NCBI RefSeq assembly: GCF_000024085.1
Contig: NC_013166.1
Location: 1,922,001-1,986,000, forward strand
Length of the DNA: 64,000 nucleotides
DNA from: Kangiella koreensis DSM 16069
GTDB lineage: Bacteria; Pseudomonadota; Gammaproteobacteria; Enterobacterales; Kangiellaceae
Direction of reading: 5' to 3'
Position numbers and translations under genes: made by a program. Below are positions 19,302 through 58,358 of this stretch, in pieces (the first letter of the stretch is position 1; the number at the start of each line of letters is the position of its first letter). The notes beneath the pieces are model-generated. The model had not been told where the DNA came from and did not search any database. It saw nothing but the letters and a program-made list of their open reading frames with translations.

Positions 19302-19315
19302 TTAGGCATTCTGAA

Positions 19316-19375
19316 GTGAGGACGACCTCACCTCTCAATTTCGTTAGGGGACGGCCCCCAGAGCTAATTGAGAGG
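19316..19375 (+). promoter_or_regulatory. Guanidine-II (mini-ykkC) riboswitch, copy 1
   Basis: Two hairpins with the diagnostic ACGR tetraloops: GTGAGG-ACGA-CCTCAC (19316-19331) and GGGG-ACGG-CCCC (19347-19358). The linker CCTCTCAATT (19331-19340) is exactly complementary to AATTGAGAGG (19366-19375), which contains the ribosome binding site of gdx. Guanidine binding should lock both hairpins and free the site, switching translation on. A run of five C's closes the second hairpin here, against four in copy 2. Confidence 0.9.
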
Positions 19376-22016: not shown

Positions 22017-22024
22017 ATTCTGAA

Positions 22025-22083
22025 GTGAGGACGACCTCACCTCTCAATTTCGTTAGGGGACGGCCCCAGAGCTAATTGAGAGG
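22025..22083 (+). promoter_or_regulatory. Guanidine-II (mini-ykkC) riboswitch, copy 2
   Basis: Same structure as copy 1: ACGA-loop hairpin at 22025-22040, ACGG-loop hairpin at 22056-22067, and a linker complementary to the gdx ribosome binding site. It has one fewer C after the second hairpin, the only difference noticed between the two cassettes. Confidence 0.9.
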
Positions 22084-55080: not shown

Positions 55081-57642
55081 TCATGGTAAACACACCTCCT
55101 CGGCAGGTGCTCGCATATTGTAATGGGTCGACATTACATGTCCATAAGCACCTGCATTTTCAATCAGTATCAGATCACCTTCAAAGGTGTCAGGGAAAGG
55201 AATTTCAATACCTAGCTTATCGGTACTTTCGCAAATCGGCCCAACAACTGTTGCTAAATGGTTTTTACTTTCAGTCATCCTGCTTAAATTTACAATGTTA
55301 TGGTAAGAACCATAAAGTGCAGGCCGCATCAGTGAATTCATACCAGTATTAATACCTACGTAGTAATAATTCTGTTTTTGTTTGACCTGCGTGACTTTAG
55401 AGACAAGAACCCCTGTATTGGCCACGATATAACGCCCAGGCTCGATCCATAATTGATGGTCAGGATATTGTGCTTTTACTTCTAACAGGCTTTGGTTAAT
55501 TTGCTCCATCGTTAGCTCTGTTTGTTGTGCTCGCTCTTTAATCCCGAAACCGCCTCCCAGGTTGAGATATTTCACATCAGGGAACTGCTTCGCAACACTT
55601 GCCAGAAGACGAGCGTGCTCAGCCCAATGTTCATTCGTTAAAATCCCACTTCCGGCATGAGCATGCAAGCCGAGCACTTTAATATTATGCTCTTTAATAA
55701 TGGGCAGCAATTCTTCTAACTCCTGAATGGGAATACCAAACTTCGAAGTAGCCCCGGCTGTCCGAACATTCTCATGGTGACCTTTGCCAACATTAGGATC
55801 AATACGAAGGAAAATAGTCTTATTAGCAAAAGTCTTCGCCCAGTATTTCAAGGGATAACTACTATCAAGTGACAGCATGACTCCATAATCCAGTGCCTTT
55901 TGATATTCGTTATGGCTGGCAAAGTTAGGCGTAAAAAATATTCGGTTAGTATCAATAGCTGGGAACAATTCTTTAATTCGCTCCACCTCAAAGATCGATA
56001 CAGTTTCAAAGCCAATACCTTGCTCATAAGCGGTGGTTAACACTTGTGGGTGATTATTTGCTTTTACCGCAAAGAAAATTTGATCGACTGCACTGATGCT
56101 TTGTAAATTTTTAATATTCTCTGCCACAGCGGCTAGATTATAGATATACGCATTTTCTCGTGATTCAAGACACTGCTCGATTTCACCGCGTCGCTGCTGC
56201 CACCATTTTTCTACAACAACTTCTGTAGCTGGCTTTTTAAGTTCTTTAGCAGTCGGTCCAAGAATTTCACTGTTTGGGTTATTGCTGATGAGTAACTCAT
56301 GCAGAGCCGCGATAACCTTATCGCAATGCTCATCGTCGATAACAAAGGTTAGATTCAGATCCGATGCAGCCTGCGATAACAGATACACTTTGTAGGTTTC
56401 AAAGATCGCAAAGGCGGGGGCAATTTTATGCAGTATAGCTCGCACGTTCTGACCAACAATAGAAACTGCTGAACAGTTTTTCATTACATTGACTCGACAG
56501 ATGGTCGCCAGTTCTTCAACCAGATTTTTAAGTCTTCGCTCACTGACCACCTGAGTCAAACTGTCCAAACTAATAGTCACGTTAGTCTCAGACGTCGACA
56601 CTAAATCCACTGACACCTGATGCTTTTTAAAGATAGCAAATAAGTCAGCCAAAAAACCCGCCTGCTGCCACATGCCCTGGCTTTCCATGGATATTAAGGT
56701 GATACCATTCTTAGCTGTAATTGCTTTAACCATGCCCCAACGGTTGTCAAAATGATGGATCTGAGTTCCAGCCAACTCGGAGTCAATGGTCGATCGAATA
56801 AAAATGGGGATATCCGATAATTGCGCCGGACGTATTGCTCTGGGATGCAAGACCTTGGCTCCAGCCGATGCCATCTCCTGTGCTTCATCATAATTAAGAT
56901 GATTCAGCAAGCGGGCATTAGGTACATGGTTTGGGTTTGCCGTAAAAATACCCGGCACATCTGTCCAGATTTCAAGCCTTGAAGCAGCCAACTTGGCTGC
57001 AAAATAAGCTGCAGAGGTATCAGAACCACCACGCCCAAGTAGCACTGTATCCTGCTCATCATTGCTGGCAATAAAACCTTGTGTAATGACCACTGGCGCA
57101 GCTTGAGTTGCGCTAATTAAGTCTTGATCAAGATCGCAAACACAACCCGCGGACAGATAATCATTCTGGCTGTGTGGGTTAGCGTATAAATAATTCCGAG
57201 CGTCCAACCACAATGGTTTATCATCAAGCACTTCCGATAGGTAATCAGCCCCAATTTTAGTTGCCCAAAGCTCACCCTGAGCCATAATCAGGGCGCGAGT
57301 GCGATCACTCACCTCGCCCAGTAAATTGATCCCATCTAACAGCCTCTTTAAATACAGATACTCTTCTTCAAGCAGATTCTCAGCTACCCCTAAGGAGTCA
57401 ATGAGCTGATTATGGAGTGTTACGATCGCCTGGTAACCCTCAACATAGTCACCACCAATAGCTTGGGCGATCAATTGTTCGAGACGATTAGAGACAGTGC
57501 TTATTGCCGAATGAACAATAAACACCTTGATGCCTTTAGCACGTTTACGTTTGACAATCTTGGCAATGGTGTCCCAATTACTGCGTGATGAGACGCTGGT
57601 ACCACCAAATTTCAAAACGTGCACTGTGCTAGTTGTTGTCAT
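55081..57642 (-). CDS. lysAC: Bifunctional aspartate kinase/diaminopimelate decarboxylase
   Basis: 853 residues, a fusion of the first and last enzymes of lysine synthesis. Residues about 5-465 are aspartate kinase: KFGGTSVSS, GRGGSDTSAAYFA, WTDVPGIFTANP and two ACT segments for feedback control. Residues about 490-853 are PLP-dependent decarboxylase: FAVKANNHPQV (PLP lysine), HAHAGSG, LNLGGGFG, WIEPGRYIV and the GAYG(H)VMS end. It makes aspartyl phosphate and converts meso-DAP to lysine. Upstream are a promoter, a lysine-rich leader frame and a terminator, consistent with attenuation. Such fusions are known in Xanthomonas-like and Kangiella-like bacteria. Confidence 0.95.
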   Translation of the reverse strand: MTTTSTVHVLKFGGTSVSSRSNWDTIAKIVKRKRAKGIKVFIVHSAISTVSNRLEQLIAQAIGGDYVEGYQAIVTLHNQLIDSLGVAENLLEEEYLYLKRLLDGINLLGEVSDRTRALIMAQGELWATKIGADYLSEVLDDKPLWLDARNYLYANPHSQNDYLSAGCVCDLDQDLISATQAAPVVITQGFIASNDEQDTVLLGRGGSDTSAAYFAAKLAASRLEIWTDVPGIFTANPNHVPNARLLNHLNYDEAQEMASAGAKVLHPRAIRPAQLSDIPIFIRSTIDSELAGTQIHHFDNRWGMVKAITAKNGITLISMESQGMWQQAGFLADLFAIFKKHQVSVDLVSTSETNVTISLDSLTQVVSERRLKNLVEELATICRVNVMKNCSAVSIVGQNVRAILHKIAPAFAIFETYKVYLLSQAASDLNLTFVIDDEHCDKVIAALHELLISNNPNSEILGPTAKELKKPATEVVVEKWWQQRRGEIEQCLESRENAYIYNLAAVAENIKNLQSISAVDQIFFAVKANNHPQVLTTAYEQGIGFETVSIFEVERIKELFPAIDTNRIFFTPNFASHNEYQKALDYGVMLSLDSSYPLKYWAKTFANKTIFLRIDPNVGKGHHENVRTAGATSKFGIPIQELEELLPIIKEHNIKVLGLHAHAGSGILTNEHWAEHARLLASVAKQFPDVKYLNLGGGFGIKERAQQTELTMEQINQSLLEVKAQYPDHQLWIEPGRYIVANTGVLVSKVTQVKQKQNYYYVGINTGMNSLMRPALYGSYHNIVNLSRMTESKNHLATVVGPICESTDKLGIEIPFPDTFEGDLILIENAGAYGHVMSTHYNMRAPAEEVCLP

Positions 57643-57694
57643 CGCTAATCTCCAAGTCTGTTATGCGAATTGTGTTAAATAAAATCATGAGCCA

Positions 57695-57728
57695 TAAAAA
57701 AACCCGCAGAGGATGTCCTGTGCGGGCT
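57695..57728 (-). terminator. Attenuator terminator upstream of lysAC
   Basis: On the minus strand GCCCGCA and TGCGGGT form the outer stem, with AGGA/TCCT continuing inside after a C-C mismatch, then seven T's. It lies 30 bases after the leader-peptide stop and 52 bases before the lysAC start. The 5' arm plus loop (57714-57727) can instead pair with 57760-57779, so the terminator has a competing structure. Confidence 0.85.
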
Positions 57729-57757
57729 TTGGAATAGAAAACAATTTAACTTTTCTT

Positions 57758-57832
57758 TCACCCACAATCATAAAGGACACGTTTTTTAAGTGCCTTCTTG
57801 GTATGTTTCTTGAAAGAAAAAGTCATATTCAT
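57758..57832 (-). CDS. Lysine-rich leader peptide for lysAC attenuation
   Basis: A 24-codon frame, or 22 codons from a second ATG at 57826, ending TGA at 57758-57760. The short form reads MTFSFKKHTKKALKKRVLYD plus Cys-Gly, so it has three Lys-Lys pairs and one Arg. The first ATG is seven bases after the -10 box, so the message may begin at the ATG itself (leaderless); no ribosome binding site is visible. Region 1 (57811-57822) can pair with 57750-57760, region 2 (57760-57779) with the terminator arm (57714-57727). Stalling at Lys codons would free region 2 and block the terminator, turning lysAC on when lysyl-tRNA is low. Confidence 0.8.
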   Translation of the reverse strand: MNMTFSFKKHTKKALKKRVLYDCG

Positions 57833-57839
57833 AATGCGG

Positions 57840-57867
57840 AATATAAGTGATTTAGCGGATAAGTCAA
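57840..57867 (-). promoter_or_regulatory. lysAC promoter
   Basis: TTGACT (57862-57867) and TATATT (57840-57845) on the minus strand with 16 bases between. Transcription should start near 57832, at or next to the leader ATG. The promoter lies in the 12-39 bases beyond the tadA stop. Confidence 0.75.
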
Positions 57868-57878
57868 ATAATAACTGG

Positions 57879-58358
57879 TTATTTATTATCCTTGCCCGCT
57901 CTTTTGTTACGGAAGAAACGCTTTAATTGCTCACTGCAATCTTCCTGCAATAATCCAGATTCAACAACACATTGGTGATTAAAGCTTGGATTCTGCAAAA
58001 TATTCAGTACAGAACCAGCAGCACCCGTACGTGGATCAGTTGTAGCAAAAACCACCCGCGACACTCTTGCATGAACCATTGCCATCGCGCACATTGCGCA
58101 GGGCTCAAGAGTCACATATAGCGTGGTATCCACTAGACGATAATTATCGAGTTTTTGCCCAGCAGCTCGCAAGACAACCATTTCAGCATGAGCCGTAGGA
58201 TCATGGTTAAAAATGGGTTGATTAAAGCCTTCCGTTTTTATCTCACCATCTTTTGCTAGCACAGCACCCACAGGCACTTCGCCCTTCTCTTCAGCGATAG
58301 ACGCCAAATCAAAAGCTCGTTGCATACAGTGTTGGTCAAAATCAGTAAAGTCAGTCAT
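57879..58358 (-). CDS. tadA: tRNA-specific adenosine deaminase TadA
   Basis: 159 residues (E. coli 167). Zinc site HAEMVVLRAAG and PCAMCAMAMVHARV, with the catalytic Glu in HAE. It converts A34 to inosine in tRNA-Arg(ACG). It lies downstream of guaBA on the same strand with a 353-base hairpin-rich gap between, and the lysAC promoter begins right after it. Confidence 0.93.
   Translation of the reverse strand: MTDFTDFDQHCMQRAFDLASIAEEKGEVPVGAVLAKDGEIKTEGFNQPIFNHDPTAHAEMVVLRAAGQKLDNYRLVDTTLYVTLEPCAMCAMAMVHARVSRVVFATTDPRTGAAGSVLNILQNPSFNHQCVVESGLLQEDCSEQLKRFFRNKRAGKDNK

Follow-up and report, generated by a model that had tools for sequence, protein, structure and literature searches.

The lysAC gene of Kangiella koreensis DSM 16069 is preceded by a conserved leader that is very probably a classical ribosome-mediated transcription attenuator sensing the charging of tRNA-Lys. 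It was analysed in a window of 64,000 nucleotides (the whole stretch of DNA studied), where it lies on the minus strand between tadA, whose stop codon ends at 57879, and lysAC, in the order promoter, 24-codon frame and terminator. A first-pass annotation of this DNA had described a promoter and a frame of 22-24 codons with three Lys-Lys pairs, and had read the element as a classical attenuator. Both features are present, the frame having 24 codons, and the attenuator reading is now supported by the conservation of the leader, a compensated hairpin and clade-specific regions 1 and 2. We infer the start site of the leader, its translation, the stalling of ribosomes on it and its response to lysine. 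The element and its target gene comprise the following features.

57840-57867, minus strand: sigma-70-type promoter, TTGACT-N16-TATATT, 11 bases past the tadA stop codon
57832-57833, minus strand: predicted transcription start, on or beside the A of the leader ATG, which follows the -10 box after 7 nt
57758-57832, minus strand: leader peptide frame MNMTFSFKKHTKKALKKRVLYDCG with its stop codon, 24 codons, six Lys codons in three pairs
57812-57823, minus strand: region 1, outer part, ACTTTTTCTTTC, pairing with 57759-57749 in folding
57776-57794, minus strand: inner hairpin of regions 1 and 2, GGCAC-N9-GTGTC, enclosing Lys codons 16-17, covarying
57760-57780, minus strand: region 2 (GTGTCCT ... 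TGTGGGT), 5' side of the antiterminator
57749-57759, minus strand: region 2, outer part, GAAAGAAAAGT, partner of the outer part of region 1
57714-57727, minus strand: region 3, GCCCGCACAGGACA, 3' side of the antiterminator and 5' arm of the terminator
57696-57726, minus strand: intrinsic terminator, CCCGCACAGG-ACAT-CCTCTGCGGG followed by T7, stem 57726-57703
57640-57655, minus strand: putative ribosome-binding site (GGAG) and lysAC start codon
55081-57642, minus strand: lysAC, bifunctional aspartate kinase / diaminopimelate decarboxylase, 853 aa

The gene downstream of the leader makes the amino acid to be sensed: the lysAC product scores 1307 bits against NF006515 (cut-off 802) and contains the Pfam domains AA_kinase, ACT_9, Orn_Arg_deC_N and Orn_DAP_Arg_deC. 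Three proteins of the genome match PF02784, namely the lysAC product, an exosortase-associated decarboxylase (TIGR03099) that scores under the lysA cut-off, and speA; among them, only lysAC is assigned as a diaminopimelate decarboxylase. Other genera of the family have lysAC close behind a threonine synthase gene (L020, L021, L023, L024 and L027, the identity of the latter gene being tested with TIGR00260 for L024 and taken from translation likeness for L020, L021, L023 and L027), so that Kangiella lysAC seems to be under its own promoter instead.

The leader frame runs from an ATG at 57832 to a TGA at 57760-57758, and its Lys pairs occupy codons 8-9, 12-13 and 16-17. Among 409 frames of 15-40 aa that begin with ATG in the six reading frames of the window, it alone contains at least two Lys-Lys pairs. 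The first-pass annotation had suggested aligning the leader in related genomes, and this comparison found lysAC in 19 of 20 Kangiella genomes, with the leader frame, its Lys codons and the terminator in the same 19 (in G012 the leader is divided over two contigs, L003 and L075). The conserved start is the first ATG of the leader, not the second. The remaining genome, G017, is 99% complete and carries neither lysAC nor leader. Its sole PF02784 match is a 416-aa frame encoding an exosortase-associated decarboxylase (TIGR03099, 557 bits) below the lysA cut-off, so G017 is possibly a lysine auxotroph and, judged from its sequence, may need external lysine.

Lysine makes up 114 of 482 residues (24%) of the 19 leaders, with 3 to 8 per leader, compared with 5.9% across four long window genes. 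At least two Lys-Lys pairs occur in 16 of the 19 leaders and a single pair in two (G011 and G013). The G015 leader has three isolated Lys residues and no pair; these three leaders count against the attenuator reading. In general the element contains a short frame in which codons for the pathway's amino acid are clustered. Such a poly-basic, A-rich frame could also slow ribosomes whatever the charging state, in which case the leader would sense slow AAA/AAG translation, or translation speed in general, and not lysine. The AAAAAA runs among the Lys codons and the scarcity of pairs in G015, G011 and G013 are compatible with this explanation. We nevertheless regard it as unlikely, because Lys residues are retained through swaps between AAA and AAG among the Kangiella leaders, because the regulated gene serves lysine synthesis, and because similarly built Kangiella leaders carry Trp before a DAHP synthase gene and Thr before thrA.

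Folding places the outer pairing, the inner hairpin and additional pairs, for example CACAGC:GCTGTG in several loci, in one long helix between regions 1 and 2 (described for 14 of 18 folded loci). The first-pass annotation had paired 57811-57822 with 57750-57760; this pairing is real, but it is shifted by one base (57823-57812 with 57759-57749) and is merely the base of the longer helix. The hairpin formed by 57794-57790 and 57780-57776 around the last Lys-Lys pair was absent from that annotation. In an alignment of 19 sequences (A1, with L003 lacking its 5' end), 95 of 95 cells of this inner hairpin are paired, and two-sided changes are found at four of its five pairs, in 14 cells. Its covariation score was reached by 0 of 500 shuffles, and six slid versions all scored lower; its number of pair types is not above that of the shuffles, 180 of 500 reaching the native value, in a control that ignores relatedness. 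The compensated changes that the first-pass annotation had proposed to look for in the competing stems are therefore present in the inner hairpin, and regions 1 and 2 are complementary in a clade-specific manner. The nearly invariant terminator pairs hold little covariation information.

The two regions have changed together in the clades L014-L016 and L017-L019. When they were swapped between clades, the mean energies of the native 1:2 pairings were -24.6, -20.2 and -16.5 kcal/mol, compared with cross-clade means of -11.1 to -15.8 kcal/mol; the 2:3 pairing was not clade-specific. Under synonymous recoding of the leaders, with codon usage drawn from four genes of the window, the native fold energy was reached by 0-18 of 300 recoded versions per locus (z -1.7 to -5.5, 18 loci). 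Covariation, clade swap and recoding thus point to a 1:2 pairing that competes with the 2:3 pairing. The same changes bear on whether the frame encodes a functional small basic peptide, the terminator merely ending its own transcript. Conservation of the leader peptide would fit this explanation, and the peTrpL peptide of S. meliloti, as described in part of PMC7298713, can be adduced for it. It is nonetheless very improbable, given that the N-terminus of the peptide is variable, that its C-terminal codons shift together with the RNA pairing between clades, and that the element precedes lysAC and is missing along with it in G017. A peptide function could be added to attenuation instead of replacing it.

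The terminator, a CCCGC...CGGG stem with a T-run, is found in 19 of 19 loci, with an energy of -13.6 to -20.4 kcal/mol for the RNA not covered by a ribosome at the stop codon (14 of 18 folded loci). It was recognized by folding; a simple terminator scan listed none at the lysAC leader, probably because its rule demands an uninterrupted stem. The last base of region 2 is also the first of the leader stop codon. With a modelled ribosome at this stop codon, its footprint being assumed to extend 12 nt past the A-site base, the terminator remains and the 2:3 pairing does not (14 of 14 loci, of the 18 folded). When the stalled ribosome sits on a Lys pair and region 4 is left out, the 2:3 pairing forms in all 13 of those 14 loci that have a Lys-Lys pair. 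The 2:3 pairing proposed in the first-pass annotation was likewise reproduced by folding without the 3' arm of the terminator and with the ribosome on the second Lys pair. In folding, an antiterminator therefore excludes the terminator when the ribosome is stalled and region 4 is not present. Once region 4 is included, the terminator is favoured at equilibrium in nearly all stalled cases examined, and antitermination must accordingly be kinetic, the switch acting during transcription.

Under the proposed mechanism, RNA polymerase would begin transcription on the leader AUG or right beside it, and a ribosome would load on the leaderless 5' end. With plentiful Lys-tRNA, the ribosome would reach the stop codon at the end of region 2 and cover this region; region 3 would then pair with region 4, and transcription would stop ahead of lysAC. 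With scarce Lys-tRNA, the ribosome would stall on a Lys-Lys pair and cover region 1, so that regions 2 and 3 would pair before region 4 is made, no terminator would form and lysAC would be transcribed. If the leader is not translated, the 1:2 pairing would form and the terminator would follow.

Lysine genes are a textbook case of riboswitch control. No lysine riboswitch (RF00168) was found in the window at the gathering score, nor in 57640-57880 at E values up to 10, and this identity was rejected for the lysAC leader; a T-box leader was rejected likewise (no match in the window at the gathering score or in 57640-57880 at E up to 10). The search for RF00168 found none in 37 genomes of Kangiella's family, in comparison with 13 of 24 genomes of other families in the order; with its stricter filters, at most 35 candidates scored per genome and some of the 37 genomes incomplete, weak or missing lysine riboswitches are possible. 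The Rfam families His_leader, Leu_leader and Trp_leader score 20.8, 19.4 and 16.9 bits on the same stretch and strand as the element, all well below their gathering scores of 49, 50 and 41, so membership in these families was rejected. Elsewhere in the window, two Guanidine-II (mini-ykkC) riboswitch matches were found at 19314-19358 and 22023-22067 (41.7 bits each).

A metabolite- or protein-binding attenuator, such as a riboswitch or the target of an RNA-binding protein, in which the short frame would be incidental, would also account for the conserved RNA pairing and terminator. We give it little credence: all Rfam matches at the element stay below their gathering scores, lysine riboswitches were not found in the 37 family genomes, the frame is unique among the 409 of the window and retained in every one of the 19 lysAC-bearing genomes, and region 2 stops at that frame's stop codon. 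A ribosome-mediated attenuator remains our preferred reading.

The promoter and the frame also share a fixed geometry. The promoter agrees with the consensus at 10 of 12 positions. By itself this match is weak, since shuffled versions of the region contain 1.1 such sites on average, but it is conserved. Of the 19 Lys leaders, 18 have a TTGAC motif 34-36 nt ahead of the ATG (17 of the 18 complete loci, plus G012 with 35 nt), and a transcription start 6-7 nt beyond the -10 box would coincide with the ATG, suggesting that the leader mRNA is probably leaderless. The exception is G008, where the ATG stands 61 nt past TTGAC and the leaderless rule does not hold. As a control, TTGAC occurs 33-37 nt ahead of 1 of 37 long frames and of 17 of 2148 ATGs in the window, the lysAC leader being included in the 17. 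The first-pass annotation had suggested that the leader may be leaderless, and the spacing in 18 of 19 loci is consistent with this suggestion.

Other leaders in Kangiella show the same arrangement in part. All 20 Kangiella genomes encode two Trp-rich leader peptides in tandem ahead of a DAHP synthase gene (L101-L120; the gene identity was tested for L101); in the source genome these leaders lie on contig 1 at 1784938-1785522, outside the window. A simple stem-plus-T-run rule detects a terminator behind the first Trp leader in 19 of 20 genomes and behind the second in all 20. The first leader has TTGAC 33-37 nt ahead of one of its in-frame ATGs in every genome, the second in none of the 20; from this spacing, the first is probably leaderless and the second probably not. 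Additionally, leader peptides with a run of Thr precede thrA at L123-L129, and TTGAC lies 36 nt before the ATG in six of these seven loci. A thrA match (E <= 1e-200) is present in 8 of 20 Kangiella genomes and missing from the source genome; the eighth thrA locus has no Thr run. No Leu leader was recognized before leuA in the 20 Kangiella loci.

We then considered the distribution of the Lys leader beyond Kangiella. In a sample of 369 genomes of the class, lysAC (E <= 1e-120) is present in 14, one of them the source genome, and a Lys-rich frame with a terminator precedes it in one of the other 13 (G593). In the order of G593, 3 of 19 genomes have lysAC (E <= 1e-150), all of one genus, and all three carry a leader, MRSMTSKCKRVKQEADSKKLFPAR, MRFISKCKPAIKEAGSDVLFIAR and MIGMCAKRKVEKKEVSKKLGSAR. 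Of these, MRFISKCKPAIKEAGSDVLFIAR contains only three Lys and begins 412 nt ahead of the matched lysAC start. These leaders fold into a terminator and alternative forms, and by eye they show no sequence likeness to the Kangiella leaders. No Lys-rich frame with a terminator was seen by eye in the 420 nt upstream of lysAC in seven loci of other genera of the order (L020, L021 and L023-L027, leaving out L022, which lies at a contig end). The same was true of the class-sample loci L079-L091 other than L087 (12 of 13), for which 500 nt upstream were taken and the last 300 inspected, a second partial match in G488 (L092) being left out. L081 has a terminator, CCCGCC...GCGGG with a T-run, before lysAC, and no Lys-rich frame was found there.

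Inspection by eye of 17 places with weak matches to our leader model (R1) gave no further Lys leader. L075 is the 5' half of the G012 leader and not a new locus. At L061-L063, which precede what we take to be a thrA-like gene, the Lys-containing frame continues through the terminator. L068, L069 and L077 presumably precede leuA-like genes, L070 and L074 are Trp leaders, and the other matches inspected look in part like gene ends. On balance, we favour the view that leader control by Lys-tRNA charging before lysAC arose at least twice in Gammaproteobacteria, in Kangiella and in one genus of another order. In Kangiella, where no lysine riboswitch was found, it would be part of a lineage-wide leaderless design in which the leader begins 34-36 nt past a TTGAC box (Lys 18 of 19, first Trp 20 of 20, Thr 6 of 7), with ribosome and polymerase beginning together at the first nucleotide. 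Descent of the leaders of both groups from a common lysine attenuator is possible.

In the available portions of the open-licence literature, no lysine leader-peptide attenuator was found beyond a suggested Thr/Lys leader in Sinorhizobium, and an earlier report may exist elsewhere; no paper on Kangiella leader peptides was found in this literature. The excerpts of PMC2659441, PMC2965389 and PMC1262725 contain no lysine leader peptide. A survey of Actinobacteria from 2005 places lysine under riboswitches and describes His, Thr and Phe attenuators in other species, in the sections available (PMC1262725). The lysine riboswitch (RF00168, L-box) is likewise a 5' RNA element on lysine genes, but it binds lysine itself. 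A conserved lysine attenuator would mean that control of the lysine pathway can respond to tRNA charging in place of free lysine.

The nearest case is SEP5 of S. meliloti, a proposed leader whose codons include six for Thr and three for Lys, located upstream of a gene for aspartate dehydrogenase. It shares with the Kangiella leader the Lys codons and the aspartate family, but it mixes Thr with Lys, precedes another gene and is given no alternative RNA structures in the relevant part of the report (PMC10117765). S. meliloti trpL (rnTrpL) is, according to parts of PMC7298713 and PMC10117765, an attenuator leader without a 5' untranslated region, starting at the ATG. The Kangiella leader would probably share this leaderless design, as an extension and not a first case; trpL senses tryptophan and belongs to an alphaproteobacterium. 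The probable leaderless start, common to Trp and Thr leaders of Kangiella, may offer a simple system for studying how ribosome loading is synchronized with transcription without a 5' UTR. The attenuators of trp, his, leu, thr, ilv and pheA are listed, with lysine unmentioned, in the available text of a 2005 modelling paper (PMC1183508). These classical attenuators have the same plan of a frame with regulatory codons, 1:2, 2:3 and 3:4 pairings, a terminator and the amino acid of the pathway. In comparison, the Kangiella element uses lysine, targets lysAC and probably has a leaderless 5' end, and its novelty would lie in being a lysine-specific, conserved and probably leaderless member of the classical attenuators.
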